64,000 nt of DNA from Candidatus Zixiibacteriota bacterium. GTDB lineage: Bacteria > Zixibacteria > MSB-5A5 > SM23-73-2. The number at the start of each line of letters is the position of its first letter. Position 1 is the stretch's first letter. The stretch spans positions 5,405 through 69,404 of the forward strand of contig JAUWYR010000007.1 of assembly GCA_030615745.1 (NCBI GenBank). Direction: 5' to 3'. The translations under genes were made by a program, and so were the position numbers. Below are positions 6,045 to 59,372 of this stretch, piece by piece. The notes below the pieces were generated by a model. The model worked only from the letters and a program-made list of their open reading frames with translations, searched no databases and was not told the origin of the DNA.

Positions 6045-6435
6045 CCTATATAAAAGTGGTTTTTAAAAAATATTGGAGTGTAAACCTCAATGATTTTGTT
6101 TTTCAAAGACTTTACAGTAAAGCTAAAGCTTTATCATCAATCTCTTGATCCATATGGAGATGCCGAAGGTCAAGAGACTTCGCACACTCCAAAAGAAACC
6201 TTACAAGTTTGAATTTTTTTATATTTTTTAAAAACTTGATTCAATTTCCCTTAAAAGTATAGCTTTGGAGAAAATCTACTTTATGTAATCAATTGTTTGA
6301 TCAAAGTTTTCGTTTTTCCTTGTTGTAATCCCGAACGATTTTGAAAGATAAAAAATCTTTTTTTATCATTCAACTAAATCGAGCATCTCTAAAAGCTCTC
6401 TCAAGCAGTTAAAAGACGCATTAAATGAATGTAAT
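6045..6435. other. Intergenic region with a palindromic repeat
   Basis: No gene is visible in these 391 bases. They hold a 120-base element with 9-base terminal inverted repeats (6073-6192, listed separately), followed by AT-rich sequence. The region must contain the promoter for mreC on the minus strand, but no convincing -35/-10 pair was found by eye. Confidence 0.6.
6073..6192. repeat. Palindromic element with TTGGAGTGT terminal inverted repeats
   Basis: The ends are perfect inverted repeats, TTGGAGTGT at 6073-6081 and ACACTCCAA at 6184-6192. Inside are two further hairpins: TAAAGCT-AA-AGCTTTA near 6115-6130, and TCTCTTGA (6141-6148) paired with TCAAGAGA (6170-6177). Related ends recur at 41360-41425 and 51926-52015. 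No transposase or clear target duplication is visible, so it resembles a MITE or REP-like element. Confidence 0.75.
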
Positions 6436-23004: not shown

Positions 23005-23071
23005 TCATTGCGAGGGACGAAGTCCCGAAGCAATCTCTTACCGAGATTCCTCGCAAAGCTGAGGAATGACA
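23005..23071. repeat. TCATTGCGAGG...GAAGCAATCTC palindromic repeat
   Basis: The element runs from TCATTGCGAGG (23005-23015) to GGAATGACA (23063-23071). TTGCGAGG pairs with CCTCGCAA (23049-23056), and GGGAC-GAA-GTCCC forms an inner hairpin at 23014-23026. Repeats of the form ATTGCGAG...GAAGCAATC are widespread in uncultured bacterial genomes. A second copy is at 45823-45909. Confidence 0.8.
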
Positions 23072-24874: not shown

Positions 24875-25062
24875 AGCTATTTAGAGTAGGTCGAGATTCT
24901 AATCTCGACTTTTAACACTTATTTGAAATTTATCAAAAAGAAAAATTTTTGTCAATAAGGACTTTCAGAAGTAGACATAAGTTCTTTTGTGAACTTCTTT
25001 GCTAATTTTAAAAAATGTGATGACCAAACAAAACAAAACCAAAAGAGGAAAAAAGTTATGTT

Positions 25063-25116
25063 GTGTCAGGACCTCTCCGCCAAAGGCGGATCCACCTTCG
25101 GTGGAAGTCCTGACAC
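25063..25116. repeat. Three-way-junction palindrome downstream of ftsZ
   Basis: The closing stem is 10 bp: GTGTCAGGAC (25063-25072) with GTCCTGACAC (25107-25116). Inside are two adjoining 6-bp hairpins, TCCGCC-AAA-GGCGGA (25076-25090) and TCCACC-TTC-GGTGGA (25091-25105). All three stems are perfect. On the plus strand a CCTTTTTT tract follows, so it could terminate plus-strand transcription towards ftsZ. Confidence 0.9.
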
Positions 25117-25132: not shown

Positions 25133-25146
25133 CCTGCCCGGCCAGG
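25133..25146. repeat. 14-base palindrome CCTGCCCGGCCAGG
   Basis: This is a free-standing copy of a short GC-rich palindrome that recurs at 41376-41389, 43467-43480 and 63735-63748 in either orientation. Confidence 0.7.
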
Positions 25147-25229
25147 GGAGAAAAGCTTTTGACTCAACTATTTAAAAAACTCTGATGGTCAAAAAATCTT
25201 TTAACCTGTTCTTAAAACTTTTTAAAAAA

Positions 25230-41227: not shown

Positions 41228-41594
41228 GGAAAAAATTAGATATTTTTAAAAAAATTATTGGTGGAAATGCACAATTTGTAGGGGGTTAGACTACTATATA
41301 TAGAGTTTAGGATTAAAGCAATGTAATTTTATTATTTTTAGTTCAAAAAAAGGGGTTATTGGAGTGTAAACCTTTCCTGGCCGGACAGGCAGGTTTACTT
41401 GGTCAAGCTCAAGCTTGACACTCCATGAATATCTGGAACGTAAACCTTCAGGTTTACTTAGCAAAGCTAAAGTCGAAGACCTTGATGGCCTTGCACTCCC
41501 ACGCGTAACCATCCCAATCTTGAAAGAATATGAGTTTACAATTTAATTTCGTGATTCTAATTCAAAACTAATCGACATTATCAAGCTTTTCAAA
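41228..41594. other. Divergent intergenic region with palindromic repeats
   Basis: This gap between mraZ and the plus-strand radical SAM gene holds the three-way-junction palindrome at 41360-41425. A second, related copy follows at about 41431-41500, with GTAAACC-TTCA-GGTTTAC as its hairpin. A candidate open frame on the minus strand at 41294-41512 is made of these repeats and is not a gene. Confidence 0.65.
41360..41425. repeat. Three-way-junction palindrome with nested 14-base palindrome
   Basis: The closing stem TGGAGTG/CACTCCA (41360-41366, 41419-41425) encloses two hairpins: GTAAACCT/AGGTTTAC (41366-41373, 41391-41398) and GTCAAGCT-CA-AGCTTGAC (41402-41419). The loop of the first hairpin contains the palindrome CCTGGCCGGACAGG (41376-41389). 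The neighbouring copy at about 41431-41460 lacks that insert. Confidence 0.85.
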
Positions 41595-41622
41595 TTGACA
41601 ACCTCTCTTTTTCTCCTATCTT
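41595..41622 (+). promoter_or_regulatory. Promoter of the B12-type radical SAM gene
   Basis: TTGACA (41595-41600) and TATCTT (41617-41622) are 16 bases apart, 25 bases upstream of the ATG at 41648. Confidence 0.6.
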
Positions 41623-41647
41623 GTTCCATAATTACTTAAAGTAAAAA

Positions 41648-43357
41648 ATGATCGACTTAATTCTACTCCATCCCCCAACAATCTACGACTTCAGAAAGAA
41701 AAATATCCTTTTCGGTCCAATTGCTGATGTTATCCCATCTACTCCTGTTTTTGAGATGTATCCTTTGGGTTTTGTTAGCCTAACTTCTTACCTTGAAAAA
41801 AGAGGTTTTAAGGTCAGGATTATAAATATAGCTTTGAAGATGCTTTTAGACCAAGGATATGACGTTGAAAAAGAGATTAAAAATCTCAATCCGAAAGCCT
41901 TTGGAATTGATTTGCACTGGCTTCCCCATTGTCACGGAGGATTGAGAATTGCAGAGATTGTAAAAAAATATCATCCAGAAACCCCGATAATATTCGGAGG
42001 TCTTTCAGCTACATATTATCATCTTGAATTAATAAAATATCCACAGGTTGACTTTGTGGTAAGAGGGGATTCAGCAGAAGAGCCATTATTTCAATTGCTC
42101 AAGAGTTTAAAAAATAAAGGTGATTTTTCCTCTGTGCCGAATCTAACCTATAAAGAAAAGGGTGAAGTAAAGACAAATCAACTATCCTGGGTTCCTTCTG
42201 ATTTGAATCATATAAACATAGATTATTCCCAAATAGCCTCCTCGGTTAGAAGGGATAAAGATTTCTGGGGTTATGTTCCATTTTACGGATGGGAAACATA
42301 TCCAATTTTATCTGCTTTAACCTGCAGGGGTTGCACTTACAATTGTCCTTCCTGTGGAGGGTCTGCTTCTTTTTATAATCAATTTTGCAAAAGAAAAAGA
42401 CCTGCTTACAGGGACCCGGAGCAGGTTTTAGCTGATATCAAATTATTGAATCTTTTAGTCAAAGGTCCTGTTTTTGTGATAGGTGATATTTGTCAGTTAA
42501 GTGAGGATTATGCCCAAAAACTACTTTCCCTTATAAAAAAACAAAGAATTCAAAACCATTTTGTCTTTGAGTTTTTCAAGTTGCCAGAACCTGAGTTTGT
42601 TGAGAAAATAAAAAAACACGTTAAGAATTTCAACGTTCAGTTATCACCTGAAACACATGACCAGAATATCAGACCCCCTTTCAGAAGCTATTTTGAAAAT
42701 AAAAAATTAGAGGAGACAATAAATTTATTTTTAAATTCAGGTTGTAATAAAGTTGACCTTTTCTTTATGATCGGACTTACAGGTCAAACTTATAATTCAG
42801 TCCTACAAACAATTGATTATTGTGATTATCTTTTAGGAAAATTCAATAAAAAGCCTATCCCATTTATCGCTCCTTTAGCCCCTTTTGTGGATCCAGGAAG
42901 TTTAGCTTTCGAAAACCCGGAAGAACATGGTTATAAAATTTTTTACAAAAGATTGGAAGAGCACAAAAAAGCATTGGAAATGCCTTCCTGGAAATACTGG
43001 CTTAATTACGAGACGAATTGGATGACCCGCGAGCAAATAGTTGATGTTACCTATAAATCCGCAGAAAAATTGAACCAGATTAAATTTAAACACGGACTGA
43101 TCTCTGAGAAAAGATTTGAACAAACAAAAACTCGAATTGAAAATTCTTTGAAAGCTTTAGAGCAAATCGATAAGTTCGTCAAAAATAATTGTAATAAAAT
43201 TGAGGGAAGAAGGAACCATGTTTTTACCCCACACTATCCGACAATATGTGAGAAAGATGAGTTGAGGTGGCCTGTTATTTTTTCGGGAATTAAATTACCA
43301 CAAACAGTTGTTAAAACCTTTTTTTTCATCATTCGAAATATCCTGAAAATCTTTTAG
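41648..43357 (+). CDS. B12-binding-like radical SAM protein (Ta0216-like)
   Basis: This 569-residue protein has an N-terminal cobalamin-binding-like domain (LILLHPPTIYDFRKKNILFG, then PLGFVSLTSYLEKRGFKVRI and FGGLSATYYHLELIKYP). The usual DxHxxG histidine motif is not clearly present. The radical SAM cluster motif is CTYNCPSC (C229, C233, C236), preceded by an extra cysteine pair partner, C226. From memory it resembles the B12/radical SAM family named after Ta0216; that match needs a search. It stands alone on the plus strand and faces a glycosyltransferase group. Substrate unknown. Confidence 0.8.
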   Translation: MIDLILLHPPTIYDFRKKNILFGPIADVIPSTPVFEMYPLGFVSLTSYLEKRGFKVRIINIALKMLLDQGYDVEKEIKNLNPKAFGIDLHWLPHCHGGLRIAEIVKKYHPETPIIFGGLSATYYHLELIKYPQVDFVVRGDSAEEPLFQLLKSLKNKGDFSSVPNLTYKEKGEVKTNQLSWVPSDLNHINIDYSQIASSVRRDKDFWGYVPFYGWETYPILSALTCRGCTYNCPSCGGSASFYNQFCKRKRPAYRDPEQVLADIKLLNLLVKGPVFVIGDICQLSEDYAQKLLSLIKKQRIQNHFVFEFFKLPEPEFVEKIKKHVKNFNVQLSPETHDQNIRPPFRSYFENKKLEETINLFLNSGCNKVDLFFMIGLTGQTYNSVLQTIDYCDYLLGKFNKKPIPFIAPLAPFVDPGSLAFENPEEHGYKIFYKRLEEHKKALEMPSWKYWLNYETNWMTREQIVDVTYKSAEKLNQIKFKHGLISEKRFEQTKTRIENSLKALEQIDKFVKNNCNKIEGRRNHVFTPHYPTICEKDELRWPVIFSGIKLPQTVVKTFFFIIRNILKIF

Positions 43358-43421
43358 CTTGCACAGGTTTATATTCCTTTTCCTACTAGTGCCATTCCAA
43401 TTAAATTATGCAAATTTTTCT

Positions 43422-43496
43422 GTAGGGGAGGGGCTCGTCCCCTCCCAACCACCAACGGGAGACCACCCTGGCCGGGCAGGCGAGGGTCTCCCCTAC
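43422..43496. repeat. GTAGGGGAG...CTCCCCTAC palindromic repeat
   Basis: The ends are inverted: GTAGGGGAG (43422-43430) and CTCCCCTAC (43488-43496). GGGAGACC (43457-43464) can pair with GGTCTCCC (43485-43492). The CCTGGCCGGGCAGG palindrome lies in that loop (43467-43480). The element sits between two convergent genes and could terminate both. Confidence 0.8.
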
Positions 43497-43549
43497 GTAT
43501 TAGGTTTATTTTGTTGGATAAGCACTAGAAGTTGGAGGCACAAATATTC

Positions 43550-44467
43550 TCATCTACTTACTCCTATCGTCAAGATGCTTCGCATAAATTTTTTAAGATA
43601 GAAAAACAAAATTCTTAGCAATGCTCCAAAAAAAAGAATTGTTCCAAAAAAGATCAAAAGAAATGTGTTTAAAAAGCCTCTTTTGTATTTTTTTAAGAAT
43701 TTAAAAAAACCTAAATGAGATAGAAAAATCATCTCAGGTCTTGCTTTTTTTGTTGAAAAGCCTTTTAAGTGAATAGCTTTTGCCTCAGGGTAAAAATAGA
43801 TTTTCCAACCAGATCTTTTTATCCTAAAGCACAAATCCACATCTGAGAAAAAAATCTTAAAATTCGTATCGAAGAGTCCTGCCTGGTTTAATGTTTTTCT
43901 TCTTAGAAGAAGGGCAGAGCCCATAGGTTGTGGAACTTCTCTTGTGAAATTATGGTCGAAATATCCCATGCGCCATCTTCCGAATATTCTGCTTTTTGGG
44001 AAAAAATAAGAAAGCCCGGAAAGCTCCCATATAATAGTTGAAAAAAAAGGGAACTCCCTGCAAGAGGGTTGAACTAAACCATCCGGGTTTAAAAGTTGGG
44101 GACCTAAAGCACCCACTTTTTGATTTTTTTGCATAAATTCAAGCATTTTAAAAAGAAAGTTATTCATAAACTTAACATCTGGATTCAAAAGAAGGACAAA
44201 CTCCCCTTTTGCTTTTTCGATGCCCTGATTATTAGCAAAAGAATATCCTAAATTCTCTGGGTTCGAAATCAAGTTAACCTCAGGAAAAAACTCATTTATT
44301 ATTTTTTTGGTATTATCTTCAGAACCGTTATCCACAACGATTACCTCAAAATCAATTTCATCTTTTTGTGAATAGACCGAATCCAGACAATCTTTTATCA
44401 CCTCCTCTGAGTCCCAGGTGACAATGATAATAGATGTGTCAAGCTCTTTTCTTATTTTATCCATCAT
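43550..44467 (-). CDS. Glycosyltransferase family 2
   Basis: This 305-residue GT2 protein of the rhamnosyltransferase type has TSIIIVTWDSEEVIKDCLDS, VVDNGSEDNT, LLLNPDVKFM and PMGSALLLRRKTLNQAGLFD. SDVDLCFRIKRSGWKIYF follows, then a C-terminal hydrophobic stretch. It parallels the GT2 at 10332 in layout. It overlaps the upstream GT4 gene by 11 bases and ends the group. The start is the first of two ATG codons. Confidence 0.88.
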   Translation of the reverse strand: MMDKIRKELDTSIIIVTWDSEEVIKDCLDSVYSQKDEIDFEVIVVDNGSEDNTKKIINEFFPEVNLISNPENLGYSFANNQGIEKAKGEFVLLLNPDVKFMNNFLFKMLEFMQKNQKVGALGPQLLNPDGLVQPSCREFPFFSTIIWELSGLSYFFPKSRIFGRWRMGYFDHNFTREVPQPMGSALLLRRKTLNQAGLFDTNFKIFFSDVDLCFRIKRSGWKIYFYPEAKAIHLKGFSTKKARPEMIFLSHLGFFKFLKKYKRGFLNTFLLIFFGTILFFGALLRILFFYLKKFMRSILTIGVSR

Positions 44468-45740
44468 TTATTTGAAGGCTATCAAAGATTTGAGCTAACT
44501 TAGAGGTTAAATATTTTCTTTCGAAAAGGTTTAAATCCTTTTCATCGAATACATTTGGCTTCTCTTTTCTTTCGAAAAAGAATTTTATCGCCTCTTTGAT
44601 CTCATCGATGTCCTCAGGGGAGATTACCTTGCCTCTTTTGAATCTTTTGATCAACTCCCCTGTAGCACCCAAAGGAGGAACAACAGCCAAGATAGGCTTT
44701 TTTGCATAAAGATATTCGAAGATTTTCCCAGTGGAAATCTGGTCTTTTCCTTCTGAAATTAAAAGAAGCAAAAGGTCAGCAGACGCCATCTCTTTCAACG
44801 CCTTTTTATGAGGAAGATAACCTTTTCTTTGAATAAATTGATTCAAATTATATTTTTTTATAAGTTCATCCAGGTCGATTCCAAAAAAGTTTCCGATATG
44901 AACTAACCTGATTTTTGACCTCAAACTTTCTTCTTCCATTATAAGATTGGAGAAAGCCAAAAAAAATGGCTCAGGATCTGCATCCGGACTTAAAGTTCCG
45001 CAGTAGACTATCTTAAAATAATTCTTTTTTTCATCTTTTTGAAAAGAAAAATCTTCTTTGTCATATCCGCTGGGTATTATATCACAAACACAACACTCTT
45101 TTTCTTTTATTTTTTCAGCTATTTTTTCATTTATAGTTATTATTTCGTCTGCTTTTTTGAAAATATTTTCTTGTATTTTTTCTTTCAAGAACCTATGAAA
45201 AACTGTAGGGAGATACTGGAGTCTATAACCTGTCCACATATCTCTGAAATCAGCCACCCATTTTTTACCAGTTAGAATCTTTAAAAAATATGCAAGAAGA
45301 TGTGCTGTTGGTGGAGGAGAGGAAGAAAAGATCAAATCGACTTTCTCTTTTTTAGAGATAATAAAACCTTTTGCCAAAGCGAAGGGAAGCCATCCTATCT
45401 TCGAATCAGGGAAAAAAATCGAAGAGAAAAGCTTTCTTGATTCAGATGGATAAAAGTTTTTTTTAAAAGTTTTTTTTAATTTGAAGATTTTTTTTAAAAT
45501 AAAAAAAAGCCTTAAGGGGTCAAAAGAGCCGGAACGAAATACTTTGACCTCATCTGGAATCTCATCTAAAAGGGATGAGTCAAAAGCAAAATATTCTATC
45601 TCTTTTACCGTTAGAACAACTGGTTCCCAGCCAAAAGAAGTGAGATATTTTACGAACTTGGAAACCCTCTGCACACCACCCATCCCCAAGGGAGGGAAAT
45701 AATAGGAGATAATAAGAACTTTTTTTTTGCTCATCCTCAT
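44457..45740 (-). CDS. Glycosyltransferase family 4-like protein
   Basis: The GT-B protein begins KKKVLIISYYFPPLGMGGVQR and has FSSSPPPTAHLLAYFLK, WVADFRDMWTGYRLQ, IVYCGTLSPDADPEPFFLAF and a C-terminal GKIFEYLYAKKPILAVVPPLG. The pattern is that of GT4 enzymes which use FEYL in place of the EX7E donor motif. The open frame begins at a TTG at 45773; the ATG at 45740, preceded by GAGCAGG, is preferred (427 residues). Confidence 0.85.
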   Translation of the reverse strand: MRMSKKKVLIISYYFPPLGMGGVQRVSKFVKYLTSFGWEPVVLTVKEIEYFAFDSSLLDEIPDEVKVFRSGSFDPLRLFFILKKIFKLKKTFKKNFYPSESRKLFSSIFFPDSKIGWLPFALAKGFIISKKEKVDLIFSSSPPPTAHLLAYFLKILTGKKWVADFRDMWTGYRLQYLPTVFHRFLKEKIQENIFKKADEIITINEKIAEKIKEKECCVCDIIPSGYDKEDFSFQKDEKKNYFKIVYCGTLSPDADPEPFFLAFSNLIMEEESLRSKIRLVHIGNFFGIDLDELIKKYNLNQFIQRKGYLPHKKALKEMASADLLLLLISEGKDQISTGKIFEYLYAKKPILAVVPPLGATGELIKRFKRGKVISPEDIDEIKEAIKFFFERKEKPNVFDEKDLNLFERKYLTSKLAQIFDSLQINDG

Positions 45741-45822
45741 TCTAACCTGCTCTTTTAATTTTAGGGAGTCCAAAGTTTTCTCTCACTGGGGTCTCTGAAA
45801 AATTCATACTATTAACCCTTTT

Positions 45823-45909
45823 TCATTGTGAGGCTTGTCCCGAGCGTGAGCGAGGGAACTCAACGAAGCAATCTCAAGGGATTGCCACGCCCTTCGGGCC
45901 CGCAATGAC
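45823..45909. repeat. TCATTGTGAGG...CAATGACA palindromic repeat
   Basis: This is the second copy of the ATTGCGAG/GAAGCAATC family. It has TCATTGTGAGG at 45823-45833, CGAAGCAATCTC at 45864-45875, and ends GCCCGCAATGACA. It fills the gap between two glycosyltransferase genes. Confidence 0.8.
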
Positions 45910-45943
45910 AAAATACATACTTTTTCAGAGCTCTTTCACTATC

Positions 45944-47005
45944 TTATTGACAGAGCTCTAAAAATCTGTTTTCAATCACCCTCATATTCTCTTCCCAGAT
46001 AGCCTTTTCTTTAATAATAGAGAAATTTTTCTTTTTGAAAAACTCATATTTTTCTAAGTTGCTAATCAATTGGATAATTTTTTGAGCTAAATCCTTATAA
46101 TCTTTAGGAGAAAACAAAAAGCCATTCTGATTCTCCTTAACCCACTCTCTGTTTCCCGGAATATCTGTGACAACCGGGATAAGACCTGATGCCATGGCTT
46201 CGAGAAGTGAAACTGAGGTGCTGTCTGAAAGTGATGTGGAAACATAAATATCAGAATAGCTCAAAAGTCTTAAAAATTCATCTTGAGTAACCCTTCCTTT
46301 GAATTCAACATAATCTCCTACATTTAAACTATAAGCTAAAGTCATAAGATAATTTTTCTGGGAGCCCTCTCCTACAATCACAAATTTTGTTGGTTTTTGG
46401 GTCTTTTTTAAAACCAAAGGAATTGCACAGATTAAAGTCTTTAAATCATATAAAGGCTCCAAGCGCCTCAGGCTTAAAATAGTTATAGAATCTTTGTTTT
46501 TCTTTTTTTCAAGGTTTAAGAAGTTTTCATCCACTCCCATAGGAGAGGTGACAATCTTTTGCCCATCCACTCCCATACCCATCAAAACCTTTGTTAAACT
46601 AAAACCATCTGAGGTCAAAAGCTCAGCTCTATTAAGCACATAATCTACCCTGAGCCTGTGGAGAAAAGATTTTTTTGGTGAGAGCAAAATATCTGAGCCC
46701 CAACAGGAGACCACGAGGGGTCTTTTTTTAACCATAGCTCCTAAAACACCATAGCTTATCACAAAATGGGTATTTATTATATCAGGCTTTATCTTTAATA
46801 TAATCTCTTCCGTCTCTTTTTTTGCAAAAAAAAATTTTAAGCCCGGATGGGAAATCTTAGGTGCCAGAAAGTGAAACTTTGACTTTATACCTTCACCTTT
46901 TTCAAAGGAAATTAAATGGCAATTATGCCCTCTGGAAACAAAGTAGTTCACCCATCTTTCAGTGTGATAGCTTTTAGCATCTGCCAGAAAACAGATTCTT
47001 TTCAT
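45944..47005 (-). CDS. Glycosyltransferase family 4
   Basis: This GT-B protein has KRICFLADAKSYHTERWV at the N-terminus, VSCWGSDILLSPKK and ILSLRRLEPLYDLKTLI. The donor site reads STSVSLLEAMASGLIPVVTDIPGNREWV. It is a retaining GT4 enzyme, of the kind that uses a nucleotide sugar. The first in-frame start is a TTG at 47026; the ATG at 47005 gives a normal N-terminus (353 residues). Confidence 0.87.
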   Translation of the reverse strand: MKRICFLADAKSYHTERWVNYFVSRGHNCHLISFEKGEGIKSKFHFLAPKISHPGLKFFFAKKETEEIILKIKPDIINTHFVISYGVLGAMVKKRPLVVSCWGSDILLSPKKSFLHRLRVDYVLNRAELLTSDGFSLTKVLMGMGVDGQKIVTSPMGVDENFLNLEKKKNKDSITILSLRRLEPLYDLKTLICAIPLVLKKTQKPTKFVIVGEGSQKNYLMTLAYSLNVGDYVEFKGRVTQDEFLRLLSYSDIYVSTSLSDSTSVSLLEAMASGLIPVVTDIPGNREWVKENQNGFLFSPKDYKDLAQKIIQLISNLEKYEFFKKKNFSIIKEKAIWEENMRVIENRFLELCQ

Positions 47006-47059
47006 CTCGAATTGATTTAAAGACAAAAGTTTTGTAACTCTTCGATTTTATTCTCCTTA

Positions 47060-47114
47060 CGCGTAGCGGAGGGTTTATCCCTCCGTAACAGAGCCATAAA
47101 GGCTCTGCTACGCG
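47060..47114. repeat. Three-way-junction palindrome CGCGTAGC...GCTACGCG
   Basis: The closing stem CGCGTAGC (47060-47067)/GCTACGCG (47107-47114) encloses GGAGGG-TTTAT-CCCTCC (47068-47084) and CAGAGCC-ATAAA-GGCTCTG (47089-47107). All stems are perfect. A larger relative is at 59158-59292. Confidence 0.9.
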
Positions 47115-47163
47115 ACTCTTGAATCTTGCATCTTGAATCTTGCCCCTTTCATCACCATCGAGT

Positions 47164-48201
47164 TTAGACTAATTTTCTGGTTTTTTCCAAGACCCTTCCG
47201 CAAAAACTTTCCCATTCCCAGATTTTATAATATCTTTTCTTCGTGCCCCAGGACTCTTTAAATCTCAACATCCCCAAACCCTTTTCTGGTGTTGCTCCGA
47301 AGTTATAGATTTTGAAATTGTTTTTTTTAGCCCAGAGAAGTGAATGAAATCTCAAAGCATCATTAGGGCGTAAGCTCTGGTAGTTATAATCTGATGCACC
47401 TTCCCAGGCAAATAGCATATCCTTAAAATAAAAATTTATCAAAGATCCAACTATCTTTTCATCTTTTTTTGCCACAACCCACTTCAAAAGATTCTGCCCT
47501 CCTATTATATAAAGGATATTTTTAAAAAGCAAAAAAGGATATTTGGGTTTTTTCATTCGGTACCTCTCATAGGTCGAAAGTGTAAGCTCGTAGCATTTTT
47601 TAACCTCATCCTCTGATTCCACATTTTTTACAGATATCCCTCTTTTTTGAGATTGAGAAACCGCTTTTTTTCTCTCTTTTGTGAAACTTTTAAATGGATT
47701 AGCTTCATCGAACTCATTTAAATTCAGAATATGAGTAAAATACCTTCTTGATTTAAATCCAAAAGATCCTAAGAAACCAAAGCCTTCGAAAAAATCGACC
47801 ACCTCAATTTTTAAAACATTCCATCCTTTCAAGGTTTCAATACACCGTTTAATAAAATAGAAAACTTCTTTTTCCCCAAGTTTTTTATCGAATACAAATC
47901 CTCCATAGGTTCCAAAAGGAAGGGAAAAAAAAATTTTCAATCCAAATTTTTTTTTTACCCAAAAAGGAAGTCCTGCCAGATAGTTTTTTTCTTGATCTTC
48001 CAAGAGAAATAAATAGAAATCAGTTTGAGGATACGATTTTTTCCATACCAGAAACCACGGCTTGGTATGGAAAAATGTGGTGAAGTTAGAGTTTTTCAAA
48101 AGCTCTAACCATTTTTTATCATCTAACTCATCTATGTTTTTAAAAATGACCTTTCCCAAAATCTTTGAAAGTTTTTTAAAAAAATTATTGTTCCCTGACA
48201 A
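47164..48201 (-). CDS. FemAB/GNAT-like acyltransferase
   Basis: This 345-residue protein resembles the FemAB-type double-GNAT fold. It has NSNFTTFFHTKPWFLVWKKS near the start, FKSFTKERKKAVSQSQKRGI in the middle, GSLINFYFKDMLFAWEGASD and SLRPNDALRFHSLLWAKKN. The last phrase is typical of FemAB-related proteins that sit in exopolysaccharide clusters. The start is a TTG that overlaps the upstream gene by 17 bases; no ATG or GTG is better placed. The acceptor is unknown. Confidence 0.8.
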   Translation of the reverse strand: MSGNNNFFKKLSKILGKVIFKNIDELDDKKWLELLKNSNFTTFFHTKPWFLVWKKSYPQTDFYLFLLEDQEKNYLAGLPFWVKKKFGLKIFFSLPFGTYGGFVFDKKLGEKEVFYFIKRCIETLKGWNVLKIEVVDFFEGFGFLGSFGFKSRRYFTHILNLNEFDEANPFKSFTKERKKAVSQSQKRGISVKNVESEDEVKKCYELTLSTYERYRMKKPKYPFLLFKNILYIIGGQNLLKWVVAKKDEKIVGSLINFYFKDMLFAWEGASDYNYQSLRPNDALRFHSLLWAKKNNFKIYNFGATPEKGLGMLRFKESWGTKKRYYKIWEWESFCGRVLEKTRKLV

Positions 48202-50359
48202 CAGCTATTTTCCCCAAAGTCCCTTCCCCTTTTTTGACTTGAAGATAAAAAAGATATATCCCGGAAGCAACAAACTCACCAGCTTTATTCTTTAGGTCCC
48301 ATTCCCATTCCCAGCCCACATCAGGCTCGATCTGCTTTACCAGCTCACCAGCCAGAGTATATATCTTTATTTTTTGAGCGCCCAAAGGGATGTTTTTAAA
48401 TTTGACCGTATTTCCATCCATATAGGTAACAATAACCGGGTTAGGAAAAGAGACAACCTTTTTTTTGGGAGGAGTATATTTTGACAACCCATGTTCTGTT
48501 CCAATCCAGACCTCTTCATTTTTCTCAATCAGTATGCAGTTTATCTGATCAGAGACTAAATCTGAGTTGGAGGTATTGAAAACTAGAGTGAACTCCTCTT
48601 TATCACTTAAAATCCCTAAACCATTGTTAGTGCCAACCCACTTGTTATTATATTCATCCACTGCAATGAAATTCACCTTAAGACCAAGTTCTGGTGGATA
48701 GGCCACTTTGTCAAATTCCTCAAAATAGGGGTCGAATCTGACTAAACCATTGTTGGTTCCAACCCAAAGAATTCCCTCCTTGTCGAAAGTAGTGCACCGT
48801 GCCTGGCCGGAAAGCTCTTCTGGGGTATAGCATTTCAGTGTATCGTCAAGTTTATTAGCCACAGTTCCTCTATAATTTAAATCGCACAGCCCGCTCCACC
48901 TGTGGCAGATAAAAAGATGTCCATCTGAGACATAAATTTTGTTGAAAACTGTATCCAAAAGCCCATCCTGTGTGGTAAAGACAGTCCATAAGGTCTCAGG
49001 ATCATCCAAAGCTAAAAGCCCTCTTCCTTCCTCAGCTTGTTCATTTAGAAACCATTTTGTGTTATTTCCATCCACAGATATACCATTTACAACAACAACA
49101 CTATATCCAGCCGCATGTTTTAAAGGGCTGTTTTTATCATCATAATGAGACCAGAGTCCAGAAAAATCTCTCTTGTATAGGCCATCGCCCCATGTTCCCA
49201 CCCACAAATTGTTTTTCTTATCCACCTCAAGTGAATGGATGTTCCGACCCCGCCTACCGAAGACCGAGTCTAACACATCTGAATAGGATCTCCAACCCTC
49301 TGGACCAACAGATGATAATCCGTCGTTCCAGTTAGCGCACCAGAGCTTCCCGTCTGAGTCCTGTGCGATGTCCATAAAAATATTTCCTGAAGGTCCATCT
49401 ATTTCATAGTTTTTCCAGGTTGAACCATCAAAAAATGAAAGACCCTCTCCTGCTGTGCCGATCCAGATATGACCCTGTGAATCTAAATATAAACTCTTTA
49501 CATTCAAACTGAGAAGGTTCTCAGAGGGAAAAGGCTCCCTTTTGTTTTCTTTATATACAAAAATTCCGTTGGCTGTAGCTGAATAAATTTGAGTCCCGAA
49601 AATTTTTAAATCATTTATAAAATGTTTTGTTACCCCAAGCGAGTCATCAACATTTATAAAGGTTGAATCGACTGAACTGAACTTCAAAAGTCCAATAGGT
49701 GTGCCCAGAAAAATCTTTTCTTGTGCATAAAGGATTGTTTTAACGAAACCGATTTCAAAAGAAGTCCAGCTTTTCGGGTCCTGTAAGTTAAACTTAGAGA
49801 CATCTTTTGGAGCAAAGGCTACCCCCTTATCTGTTCCCACCCACACTTCATCCTCTGTTAAGCAAATGCAGTTTACCGTATCAGGAGAGATAGTTCCAAA
49901 TTTTTTATAGGTCTCCTTTACCTCCCCTTCGTTTTTCTCTATCAAAAAAAGGCTTACTCGATCACCAGAAGCAATCCATAATTTATCACCCTCCGGAACT
50001 ATATCTCTTATTTTCAATTTCTGGCTCATAAAATCTTTGTATACTCTCCAAAAATTTTTGGTTGGGTTATATTTGGTTAAAGTCCCGTTTTTTCCACCAA
50101 ACCAGAAGTTTCCAGAAGTGTCAGAGCCTAAAGAAAAAAGGTAGTTGTCTCCTAAGCCCTCCACATTGGTGATTTTTTGGACTGAACCGGTGCCAGTATC
50201 AAGAATAGCTAAACCACCAAAAGTAGCACACCAAAGTTTCTCATTTTTCAGCGTAATCTCCCAAACATAGTTCATATCAGTGTAGGTTACCCATTCAGCT
50301 GAGAAAAGAGAGCGGGATAAGAATAAAAGATTTAGGATAAAAAATATAGTTTTTCTCAT
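48185..50359 (-). CDS. Secreted two-component-regulator-type propeller protein with C-terminal sorting-like domain
   Basis: The 724-residue protein has a signal peptide of about 21 residues. Many propeller repeats of the form NxLWVGTxxGLxxFD follow (for example HIWIGTAGEGLSFFDG, NLWVGTWGDGLYKRDF, ILWVGTNNGLVRFDP, NKWVGTNNGLGILSD). The last 90 residues (FPNPVIVTY, IKIYTLAGELVKQIE, GEFVASGIYLFYLQV) form an Ig-like C-terminal domain of the kind used for type IX or related secretion in FCB bacteria. It lacks kinase and transmembrane signalling domains. The start is the ATG at 50359, not the GTG one codon before. Confidence 0.86.
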   Translation of the reverse strand: MRKTIFFILNLLFLSRSLFSAEWVTYTDMNYVWEITLKNEKLWCATFGGLAILDTGTGSVQKITNVEGLGDNYLFSLGSDTSGNFWFGGKNGTLTKYNPTKNFWRVYKDFMSQKLKIRDIVPEGDKLWIASGDRVSLFLIEKNEGEVKETYKKFGTISPDTVNCICLTEDEVWVGTDKGVAFAPKDVSKFNLQDPKSWTSFEIGFVKTILYAQEKIFLGTPIGLLKFSSVDSTFINVDDSLGVTKHFINDLKIFGTQIYSATANGIFVYKENKREPFPSENLLSLNVKSLYLDSQGHIWIGTAGEGLSFFDGSTWKNYEIDGPSGNIFMDIAQDSDGKLWCANWNDGLSSVGPEGWRSYSDVLDSVFGRRGRNIHSLEVDKKNNLWVGTWGDGLYKRDFSGLWSHYDDKNSPLKHAAGYSVVVVNGISVDGNNTKWFLNEQAEEGRGLLALDDPETLWTVFTTQDGLLDTVFNKIYVSDGHLFICHRWSGLCDLNYRGTVANKLDDTLKCYTPEELSGQARCTTFDKEGILWVGTNNGLVRFDPYFEEFDKVAYPPELGLKVNFIAVDEYNNKWVGTNNGLGILSDKEEFTLVFNTSNSDLVSDQINCILIEKNEEVWIGTEHGLSKYTPPKKKVVSFPNPVIVTYMDGNTVKFKNIPLGAQKIKIYTLAGELVKQIEPDVGWEWEWDLKNKAGEFVASGIYLFYLQVKKGEGTLGKIAVVREQ

Positions 50360-50368
50360 CACAGTAAT

Positions 50369-51847
50369 TTATAACTTTTTCAAAAGAAATGAAAGTCCAA
50401 AAAACAAAATCGAGATAAAAAAGGAGCCTTTTCCAAAAAAATCGCCAAATTTTGTAAAGAAAGTTTTTGTTTTTTTCAAAGATATTTCATCCACCACATT
50501 TTTTTGAACAAAAATTTTGGTTTTGCTGTAGGTTCTGCCATAAGGGTCAATAAACATCGATACCCCGGTGTTTGCGCACCTTGCTATCGAAATTCTGTTC
50601 TCGATCGCTCTGAAAACAGCTATCTGAGCATGCTGGAAAGGTCCCGGTGATTTTCCGAACCAGGCATCATTGGTTATATTCACTAAAAAATCTGCACCTT
50701 TTCTAACAAAATTTCTCACTAAATCAGGGAAGACCGACTCAAAGCAGATAAGGCAGGCAAATTTTCCTTCAGGGTGGTTAAACATAACATACTCAGCTCC
50801 AGAAGAGAAATCTGCCTGACCCAGGCGAATCTCTCTCATAATATGAAGTCTATCTCTTAAAGGCATCCTTTCGCTGAAAGGAACTAAATGAAGCTTTGAG
50901 TAGATTTGAGGAAAATCACCATTGGGCTTAAAAAAGAAAGCTGAATTAAAGAAAATATATTCGCCCTCACCAACTGTTCTGTAATGATTAGCTCCGGTGA
51001 ATATTGGCGTTTTCAAACTACAAGCCAAAAAATAGACTAAATTAAAGTATTTGGGGTCATATGCTAAATAGGTTGGAGCAGCTGTTTCTGGCCATACAAT
51101 AAGGTCAACATTTTCTTTAGCCACCTTTTTGCTCATCTCAGTATATATCTGGAAATTATAATCTAAAAATCTTGAGTCCCATTTCATCTCCGGGTCGATA
51201 TTTCCCTGAAGCAATGCTATCCTGAATTCCCCTTTTTCAATCTTTTCGGGGATAACTTTGGTTCCGTAAAAATATGGGATTATTATAAACAAAAAGAAAA
51301 GAACAAAAGCTAAAGAGAGCTTCTTTTTGTAAGCGAAGTTTTTTACTCCAAAATATGCTAAAACGTTCAAACAGGCTACCCAGAAGGAGACACCATAAGA
51401 CCCGGTAAAAGATGCATACTGAATTAACTTCAGATAATAGCTCTGGGTATAGGCTAAATTAAGCCAGGGAAACCCTATCTCCAGAAGAGACCTTCCAAAT
51501 TCCATACCCACCCACAAAAAAGGAAAAAAAAGGAAAGTTTTTTGTTTGGCTATCTTTTGAATCTGAGAATAGACTAAAAATAACACTGCGGTGTAAAATG
51601 ACAATGCCAATATAGCCCCTACTGCTCCTGGGAGGGTGGCATAACCGATCCAGTATAAAAGAATGGAGTTTGATATTAGTCCGAAAATATAGCCTAATTT
51701 AAAAGCATCGAAGTTTTTCTTACCCTCCAGAGCATAGATCAAAAAGACCCCAAAAAAGTAAGCTAAAAAGCCAAAGGGCAGGGGTGGAAAGGTGAGGGAG
51801 AAAAGAATTGCGGAGATTATGGTTAAAGTGTAGGGTTTTCTTTCCAT
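50369..51847 (-). CDS. lnt: Apolipoprotein N-acyltransferase
   Basis: Lnt adds the third acyl chain to lipoproteins in the inner membrane of diderms. The 492-residue protein has about six N-terminal membrane segments, a periplasmic nitrilase domain and a final hydrophobic segment. The catalytic triad is visible as Glu in WPETAAPTYL, Lys in YSKLHLVPFSER and Cys in ACLICFESVFPDLVR. It starts the group that runs into the propeller gene, 9 bases away. Confidence 0.95.
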   Translation of the reverse strand: MERKPYTLTIISAILFSLTFPPLPFGFLAYFFGVFLIYALEGKKNFDAFKLGYIFGLISNSILLYWIGYATLPGAVGAILALSFYTAVLFLVYSQIQKIAKQKTFLFFPFLWVGMEFGRSLLEIGFPWLNLAYTQSYYLKLIQYASFTGSYGVSFWVACLNVLAYFGVKNFAYKKKLSLAFVLFFLFIIIPYFYGTKVIPEKIEKGEFRIALLQGNIDPEMKWDSRFLDYNFQIYTEMSKKVAKENVDLIVWPETAAPTYLAYDPKYFNLVYFLACSLKTPIFTGANHYRTVGEGEYIFFNSAFFFKPNGDFPQIYSKLHLVPFSERMPLRDRLHIMREIRLGQADFSSGAEYVMFNHPEGKFACLICFESVFPDLVRNFVRKGADFLVNITNDAWFGKSPGPFQHAQIAVFRAIENRISIARCANTGVSMFIDPYGRTYSKTKIFVQKNVVDEISLKKTKTFFTKFGDFFGKGSFFISILFFGLSFLLKKL

Positions 51848-52078
51848 TCAAAATCAAGGTAAACTTAAAGGTTTATCGTCAAGATGTCGTCAAGACTCTT
51901 CGAGCTTCGCACGCTCCAATGTTTTTTGGAGTGTAAAGCCCCGCCTGCGGCGAGATCTACGACTTCAGCTTTACCAAAAAGATTCATCTTAATAAACCTA
52001 AAGGTTTATACTCCAAATTTTATACGAGTTTTTTTCACTCCACAATTTACAGGATACCAACAAAACTTCTTTTAGAAT
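51848..52078. other. Repeat-filled gap upstream of lnt
   Basis: This 231-base gap is filled by palindromic repeats, including the element at 51926-52015. A CGTCAAGATGTCGTCAAGACTC stretch (in part) lies at 51878-51897 and a CGCACGCTCCAA end at 51908-51919. No gene is visible. Confidence 0.6.
51926..52015. repeat. Three-way-junction palindrome with TTGGAGT ends
   Basis: The closing stem TTGGAGT/ACTCCAA (51926-51932, 52009-52015) encloses two hairpins. One is GTAAAGC/GCTTTAC (51933-51939, 51968-51974) with a CGCC-TGC-GGCG mini-hairpin in its loop. The other is ATAAACCT-AA-AGGTTTAT (51992-52009). It is related to 41360-41425 in sequence and layout. Confidence 0.82.
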
Positions 52079-59109: not shown

Positions 59110-59372
59110 TTATTCCTCCATATTTCAGATTTTAACTATCTTTTCAATTTTTTTAATCGCATAGCAGCGTCCCTGGCCAAGGAGCCTTTAGGGCTCCTCT
59201 CTTTGTTTGTGCGGGAATTGTCGTAAAGACCCGTTCCGGGGATTTCCCGCACAGGGCTCCATAATGCGAAGGGATAAACCCTTCGCTACGCGAAAAATAC
59301 AAGAACAGATTTTTCAAGTTACCATTCTTTCTCCTTTTCTAAAAATTTCAGCTACGAAACTTTAATTTCTTT
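59110..59372. other. Intergenic region with a branched palindrome
   Basis: This 263-base gap between the DUF4139 gene and the TPR lipoprotein gene is filled mostly by the repeat at 59158-59292. No gene is visible. Confidence 0.6.
59158..59292. repeat. Large branched palindrome CGCATAGC...GCTACGCG
   Basis: The closing stem CGCATAGC/GCTACGCG (59158-59165, 59285-59292, one mismatch) encloses GGAGCC/GGCTCC (59181-59197) and GTGCGGGAA/TTCCCGCAC (59209-59217, 59244-59252). A third arm is GCGAAGGG-ATAAA-CCCTTCGC (59266-59286). It shares outer stem and one arm pattern with 47060-47114, and holds a CCTGGCCA half of the 14-base palindrome at 59172-59179. Confidence 0.85.

Follow-up and report, generated by a model that had tools for sequence, protein, structure and literature searches.

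The 64,000-nucleotide window analysed here (Candidatus Zixiibacteriota bacterium, contig JAUWYR010000007.1) is part of contig C9 of genome G000 (2.28 Mb, 74 contigs). It carries five repeats, at 25063, 41360, 47060, 51926 and 59158, to which a first-pass annotation of the sequence had attributed one branched design, a closing stem with two or more hairpins inside, in spite of unrelated sequences. Our analysis indicates that the branched elements are very probably REPINs, that is, repetitive extragenic palindromic (REP) sequences paired head to head, spread by REP-associated tyrosine transposases (RAYTs). The kind is already known, as REP doublets with RAYTs (Bertels and Rainey 2011, PMC3116915; Nunvar 2010, PMC2817692; Nunvar 2013, PMC3686654); what is new is that feet other than GT[AG]G are used, that partners are strictly unlike and that nested inserts are present. 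Here a REP is defined as a foot directly 5′ of a perfect hairpin, and a REPIN as two REPs head to head. The main sample consisted of stretches totalling 707 kb (31% of the genome), partly picked around matches, and the key counts were redone on a 302-kb sample picked independently of matches (the unbiased sample). The foot classes were derived from the same data used for counting them, and the counts of REP and insert copies represent non-independent events, because copies share descent.

When folded as single-stranded DNA, 25063-25116 and 47060-47114 formed clean three-way junctions (z -7.3 and -7.6, respectively; 0 of 200 shuffles folded as well in either case). At 41361-41424 and 51928-52014 the three-way junction was accompanied by an additional hairpin, located in the left-arm loop (for the stretches folded, z was -4.2 and -4.6); 59158-59291, a composite, had a weak closing stem (z -4.6). 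The branched design is therefore borne out by folding and shuffles for four of the elements, and 59158 is a looser composite. With a strict detector (closing stem of at least 6 bp and at least two hairpins, at least 20 bp in total) 26 branched elements were found in 424 kb, versus 0-4 in shuffled sequence; in the unbiased 302 kb, 10 branched elements of at least 18 bp were found, versus 0-3 in shuffled sequence.

The elements are not unrelated in sequence, as had been thought. The 41360 and 51926 elements share the end GGAGTG, those at 47060 and 59158 share GCGTAGCG(G/A)AGGGTTTATCCCT(C/T)CG, and 25063 is a GTTG-GTGTCAGGAC hairpin that is found elsewhere in the genome without inner hairpins. 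They were assigned to the GGAGT (41360, 51926), GCGTAG (47060, 59158) and GTTG-GTGTCAGGAC (25063) classes. Feet were enriched 5′ of hairpins, with 92 observed versus 20 expected for GTAG, 92 versus 38 for GGAG, 57 versus 26 for GTTG, and 44 versus 1.2 for TGGAGT; the foot GTAG is canonical, and GGAGT and GTTG are variant. A foot followed by a perfect hairpin occurred 205 times in 707 kb, versus 16-31 times in shuffled DNA. These REPs are mostly intergenic: only 40 of the 205 lie inside open reading frames (ORFs), although ORFs cover 83%. At least eight arm families are present in the genome, along with three RAYTs. Branched repeats with ATTGCGAG...GAAGCAATCTC ends, located at 23008-23056 of the window and at L011:19008-19090, belong to a class distinct from the foot-type REPs; their end motif appears similar to one that is common across environmental genomes.

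The variation of the arms was analyzed in the GGAGT class. In 19 distinct REPs of equal length, 100% of the positions were paired, with 38 both-side changes (11 in shuffles) and a covariation of 0.811 (0.192 in shuffles). The signal was lost when the partner was slid by one to three columns, and the G-C pair at the base of the stem was invariant. Since the REPs were selected as hairpins, full pairing is partly by construction; the main point is that many compensated arm types exist beneath one fixed foot. The proposal that shape is kept without sequence holds for the arms, which vary with full compensation, but not for the short foot, which is conserved.

Same-foot neighbours at most 20 bp apart were head to head in 22 of 28 cases (p 4e-9). 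The first-pass annotation had named as a refuting case that most repeats are single hairpins and the branched ones chance neighbours. This is true in part, since detected same-foot head-to-head pairs account for about one third of the REPs of the unbiased sample; the pairs themselves are not due to chance. The two partners differ: identical stems were found in 0 of 27 head-to-head same-foot pairs, where 5.6 would be expected with random partners sharing the foot and the first three stem bases (p ∼2e-4, a rough value because copies are related by descent). At RAYT loci mostly of other phyla, 15 of 25 GTAG pairs were identical (Fisher 7e-7 versus the 0 of 27 here), and the identical pairs there have spacers of at least 15 bp, against a median spacer of 8 bp for the pairs of this genome. 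When the right REP was replaced in silico by the mirror of the left one, all 25 pairs tested collapsed into one long hairpin, whereas 15 of the 25 native pairs folded as two hairpins. The collapse of identical pairs suggests palindrome avoidance, and strict unlike pairing would fit an avoidance of long palindromes, most needed at short spacers such as those found here. In Di Nocera 2013 (PMC3733652), a preference for heterodimers was seen with "no obvious explanation", and protection from clearance was proposed.

The first-pass annotation had also raised the possibility that a transposase of the TnpA-REP type acts on such hairpins, and this idea is supported by both the compensated arms and the genes present. 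Three RAYTs are encoded in the genome (NCBIfam NF047646; 145, 103 and 129 bits, with a cut-off of 80). Their profile matches PDB 4er8, a solved TnpA-REP, with E 1e-41; the HUH motif is present as DHFH, EHFH or NHLH, together with YIH.NP with the catalytic Tyr of the Y1 family, and the best matches among named genomes are Zixibacteria. Each is flanked by REPs of its own class: RAYT1 (contig C17) by GTAG-GTCAGGAGC REPs, RAYT2 (C25, L030) by GTTG REPs, and RAYT3 (C65) by GTAG-GTCAAGT REPs. For the other classes RAYTs were sought in relatives. RAYTs flanked on both sides by GGAGT REPs are found in the congener G001 and in other members of the order (G001:C12, G005:C142 and G009:C143), and G001 also carries a RAYT flanked by GTTG REPs with GTGTCGGGAC/GTGTCAGGAC/GCGTCAGGAG arms (G001:C24) and a RAYT for the GTCGAGAT class (G001:C113). 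The nearest candidate for the GCGTAG class is only a similar RAYT locus, G003:C73 (L072), with REPs starting CGCGTAG. REP classes that persist after RAYT loss have been published (PMC3686654), and the classes that have a RAYT in relatives and none in this genome agree with those cases. By analogy with published work on relatives (PMC8266576), the RAYT would recognise the foot/hairpin structure. RAYT2 (G000:C25) carries NHLH and YIHNNP, like subclass 2.6, whose REPs have been termed atypical (PMC6006769), yet it is flanked by regular GTTG-foot hairpins.

Comparison with G001 revealed sites without the elements. The interval with the 47060 element corresponds to a much shorter one in G001 (Table 1), 59121-59311 measures 191 bp here with the element and 32 bp in G001, the 41360 element is likewise missing from the corresponding region, and several further REP-rich intervals differ in like manner. 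This absence between the same genes bears on whether the branched repeats could be RNA elements (terminators, mRNA-stability hairpins or regulatory RNA) under selection for shape. Their position between genes that are mostly co-directional and the run of T that follows the 25063 element would suit such a role, and the covariation is equally compatible with RNA and DNA; but Rfam gave no match in the window, an RNA role would explain neither the fixed foot nor the flanking of RAYT genes, and we consider such a role very unlikely. An accidental adjacency of GC-rich hairpins in AT-rich intergenic DNA might be argued from the many single hairpins and from energy-based local folding (Lfold), which could not distinguish real from shuffled DNA and was dropped. 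Strict detection, foot enrichment, orientation bias and covariation are, however, all far above the shuffled controls, and refute chance.

Several observations weigh against the REPIN interpretation. By folding, 10 of 25 pairs are more stable as one long mismatched hairpin than in the branched form, so that the active structure may be other than the three-way junction. The arm families far outnumber the RAYTs of the genome, in which no RAYT with GGAGT REPs on either side of it was found, and about two thirds of the REPs in the unbiased sample lie outside any detected same-foot head-to-head pair. Presence and absence in two genomes cannot separate gain from loss; no movement was observed, and we infer transposition itself.

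If the elements are REPINs, the two feet of the foot-out pair would make up the closing stem, with the two hairpins as branches; since the closing stem is mostly foot-with-foot, every family would adopt the same shape regardless of the arm sequence. The RAYT, an HUH-Y1 nuclease, would bind the foot and hairpin on single-stranded DNA, cut adjacent to them, and move the doublet in single-stranded form. Constraint would fall on the foot and on parts of the hairpin, and the other arm positions could drift provided that both sides change together. Unlike hairpins would keep the doublet from becoming one long near-perfect palindrome, which may be the reason for the unlike pairs. Loops would later gather small hairpin inserts, and their arrival may account for the complex forms at 25063, 41360 and 51926.

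The first-pass annotation had missed that the inner hairpins of these three elements derive partly from later inserts. At 25063 the CTCA loop of the GTGTCAGGAC hairpin is extended by a 30-nt double hairpin, and a reversed copy is found at L019:713. The GTAAAGC and GTCAAGC REPs (GGAGT foot) carry inserts with varying hairpin arms and a common GATCTACGAC tail, as in the 51926 element. A further insert, M15, is a 15-nt palindrome, CCTGYCCGGCCAGGR, with 46 copies in the sample. Exact excision of the 15 nt restores a hairpin of at least 7 bp in 28 of the 46 copies; the corresponding figure is 2.2% for random sites, and 12 of 1319 for other sites centred on CCGG. M15 lies inside at least eight different REP hairpins, with GTAAACC, CGCAACC, GGGAGACC, CCCACGTTG, ATCGAGGATG, TCAATCC, CCCGCCAGGTC, CGGAGGG, CAGAGCC and GCGTCAGGAG as host arms. 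In the CGGAGGG, CAGAGCC and GCGTCAGGAG hosts it splits the stem, not the loop (CGG^AGGG, CAG^AGCC and GCGTCAG^GAG), which argues against a mere extension of the loop. The base before M15 is G in 44 of 46 copies, and the base after it is mostly A. The pattern CCTGYCCGGYCAGGR was searched in 118 genomes, including G001, of the same genus, and G048, a distant Zixibacterium of another family; there were 105 matches in the genome, 5 in G001, 12 in G048, and 0-3 in other Zixibacteria. M15 sits in a different REP in G048, GTAGGGGTTTG^M15^ATTAATCAAACCCCTAC, with the same G^A junction. In an orthologous comparison, the only matching intervals differ in an entire REP cluster (L045:7556-9170 versus 128 bp).

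M15 is possibly a self-contained 15-nt mobile insert that enters hairpins of many unrelated REP families and has multiplied here and, separately, in G048, a reading that we hold tentatively. To our knowledge, there is no smaller mobile insert. It is also conceivable, if somewhat improbable, that M15 is an apical extension shared among REP families by modular exchange (template switching between hairpins) and no insert at all. Most copies do sit in REP hairpins, and loop sequences common to several proteobacterial REP families are described in PMC3733652. An exchange of apical parts is harder to reconcile with the plain arms that exact excision restores in several families, the stem-splitting cases included, with the recurrence of the same M15 at the same junction in another REP of the distant G048, and with the copies that lie outside recognisable REPs. 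We rejected the idea that M15 copies are half-elements left by a larger insertion, as the host arms tested contained diverged full-length copies and no solitary halves.

Positions Y5 and R15 of M15 change together almost without exception (C with G, T with A), for example at 41375-41389 and 43466-43480; they are unpaired in the obvious CCTG/CAGG hairpin, and an alternative YCC-GGCCA-GGR hairpin would pair them. At L050:17083-17127 the 15 nt between two M15 copies hold a third, diverged copy (CCTGCCCGTTCAGGG), which makes a small tandem array. The near-identical contig starts of G000:C9 (204 and 524) and G000:C11 (204 and 525) each carry two equally spaced M15 copies, and represent a repeated region at contig ends. 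In L221 and L222 (G048:C30:49447 and C35:23994) M15 occurs in apparently coding lysine-/glutamate-rich stretches, where 15 nt amount to five in-frame codons.

The cyanobacterial small dispersed repeats (SDRs) of Nostoc, of 21-27 nt, reportedly include families that are alike in structure and not in sequence. M15 resembles the SDRs as a very small dispersed repeat with precise insertion into another repeat, and differs from them in its 15-nt length, its occurrence in Zixibacteria and its position within REP hairpins. The Nostoc SDR elements (Elhai 2008) are cited in PMC4390886. The features of the window are collected in Table 1.

Table 1. Predicted REPs, REPINs and inserts, in window coordinates.
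Feature	Position	Strand	Description
Left REP of 41360 REPIN	41361..41398	+	foot GGAGT, arms GTAAACCT/AGGTTTAC, 15-nt insert in loop
M15 in 41360 REPIN	41375..41389	-	CCTGTCCGGCCAGGA on minus strand; excision restores GTAAACC-TGAA-GGTTTAC
Right REP of 41360 REPIN	41402..41424	-	foot GGAGT, arms GTCAAGC/GCTTGAC
Additional GTAAACC hairpin adjoining 41360 REPIN	41439..41457	+	foot degenerate
Left REP of 47060 REPIN	47063..47085	+	foot (CGC)GTAG, arms CGGAGGG/CCCTCCG
Right REP of 47060 REPIN	47089..47111	-	foot (CGC)GTAG, arms CAGAGCC/GGCTCTG
Interval with 47060 element	47006..47113	.	108 bp here, 25 bp in G001 (site without element)
Left REP of 51926 REPIN	51928..51974	+	foot GGAGT, arms GTAAAGC/GCTTTAC
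24-nt insert CCCGCCTGCGGCGAGATCTACGAC in loop of 51926 left REP	51940..51963	+	
Right REP of 51926 REPIN	51992..52014	-	foot GGAGT, arms ATAAACC/GGTTTAT
REP at 25063	25060..25116	+	foot GTTG, arms GTGTCAGGAC/GTCCTGACAC; plain form (loop CTA or CTCA) elsewhere
30-nt double-hairpin insert in 25063 loop	25076..25105	+	TCCGCC..GGCGGATCCACC..GGTGGA; opposite orientation at L019:713-742
59158 composite	59158..59291	.	degenerate left part, GTGCGGGA hairpin (59209-59252) with loop insert, right REP
Right REP of 59158 composite	59266..59289	-	foot (CGC)GTAG, arms GCGAAGGG/CCCTTCGC
Left REP of a further REPIN, absent from the first-pass annotation	43422..43446	+	foot GTAG, arms GGGAGGGG/CCCCTCCC
Right REP of 43422 REPIN	43457..43496	-	foot GTAG, arms GGGAGACC/GGTCTCCC, M15 in loop at 43466-43480
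Single REP	24886..24909	+	foot GTAG, arms GTCGAGAT/ATCTCGAC; class of a RAYT in G001
M15 copy CCTGCCCGGCCAGGG	25133..25147	+	decayed GCGTCAG context
Decayed GGAGTG...CACTCC pair	6073..6192	.	interior variable

The elements share with known REPIN/RAYT systems the foot and hairpin, the inverted doublets, the intergenic location, the cognate REPs that flank RAYTs and the compensatory changes in the arms. They differ in their occurrence in Zixibacteria, in the GGAGT and GTTG feet found besides GTAG, in the presence of at least eight arm families with three RAYTs, and in the absence of identical pairs. The GTAG-tagged REP families of Di Nocera 2013 (PMC3733652) similarly form head-to-head dimers, prefer unlike partners and vary in loop size, whereas the unlike pairing found here is strict (0 of 27 identical) and applies to the different families of a single genome; neither GGAG nor GTTG occurs in the text of that paper, figures excluded. 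The E. coli bacterial interspersed mosaic element (BIME) with Y and Z REPs also joins two differing REPs in inverted order (PMC6006769), but the present arms, as perfect palindromes, lack the E. coli bulge and belong to several independent families. REPs likewise serve as landing sites for mobile DNA in the case of REP-targeting insertion sequences (IS1397, ISPpu9 and others; PMC1525189); the inserts described here are of 15-30 nt, and are not insertion sequences.

RAYT-REP biology would thereby be extended to an uncultured phylum. Several families in one genome keep the shape while the arms change, so that the recognition rule of RAYTs may be read from natural variation, and the strict unlike pairing bears on a point that is open in the REP field, namely why heterodimers are preferred. 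If M15 is mobile, mobile DNA would have a new lower limit of size, and the copying of so small a sequence would need explaining; REP hairpins would in that case serve as landing pads at which single-strand insertion yields nested hairpins.

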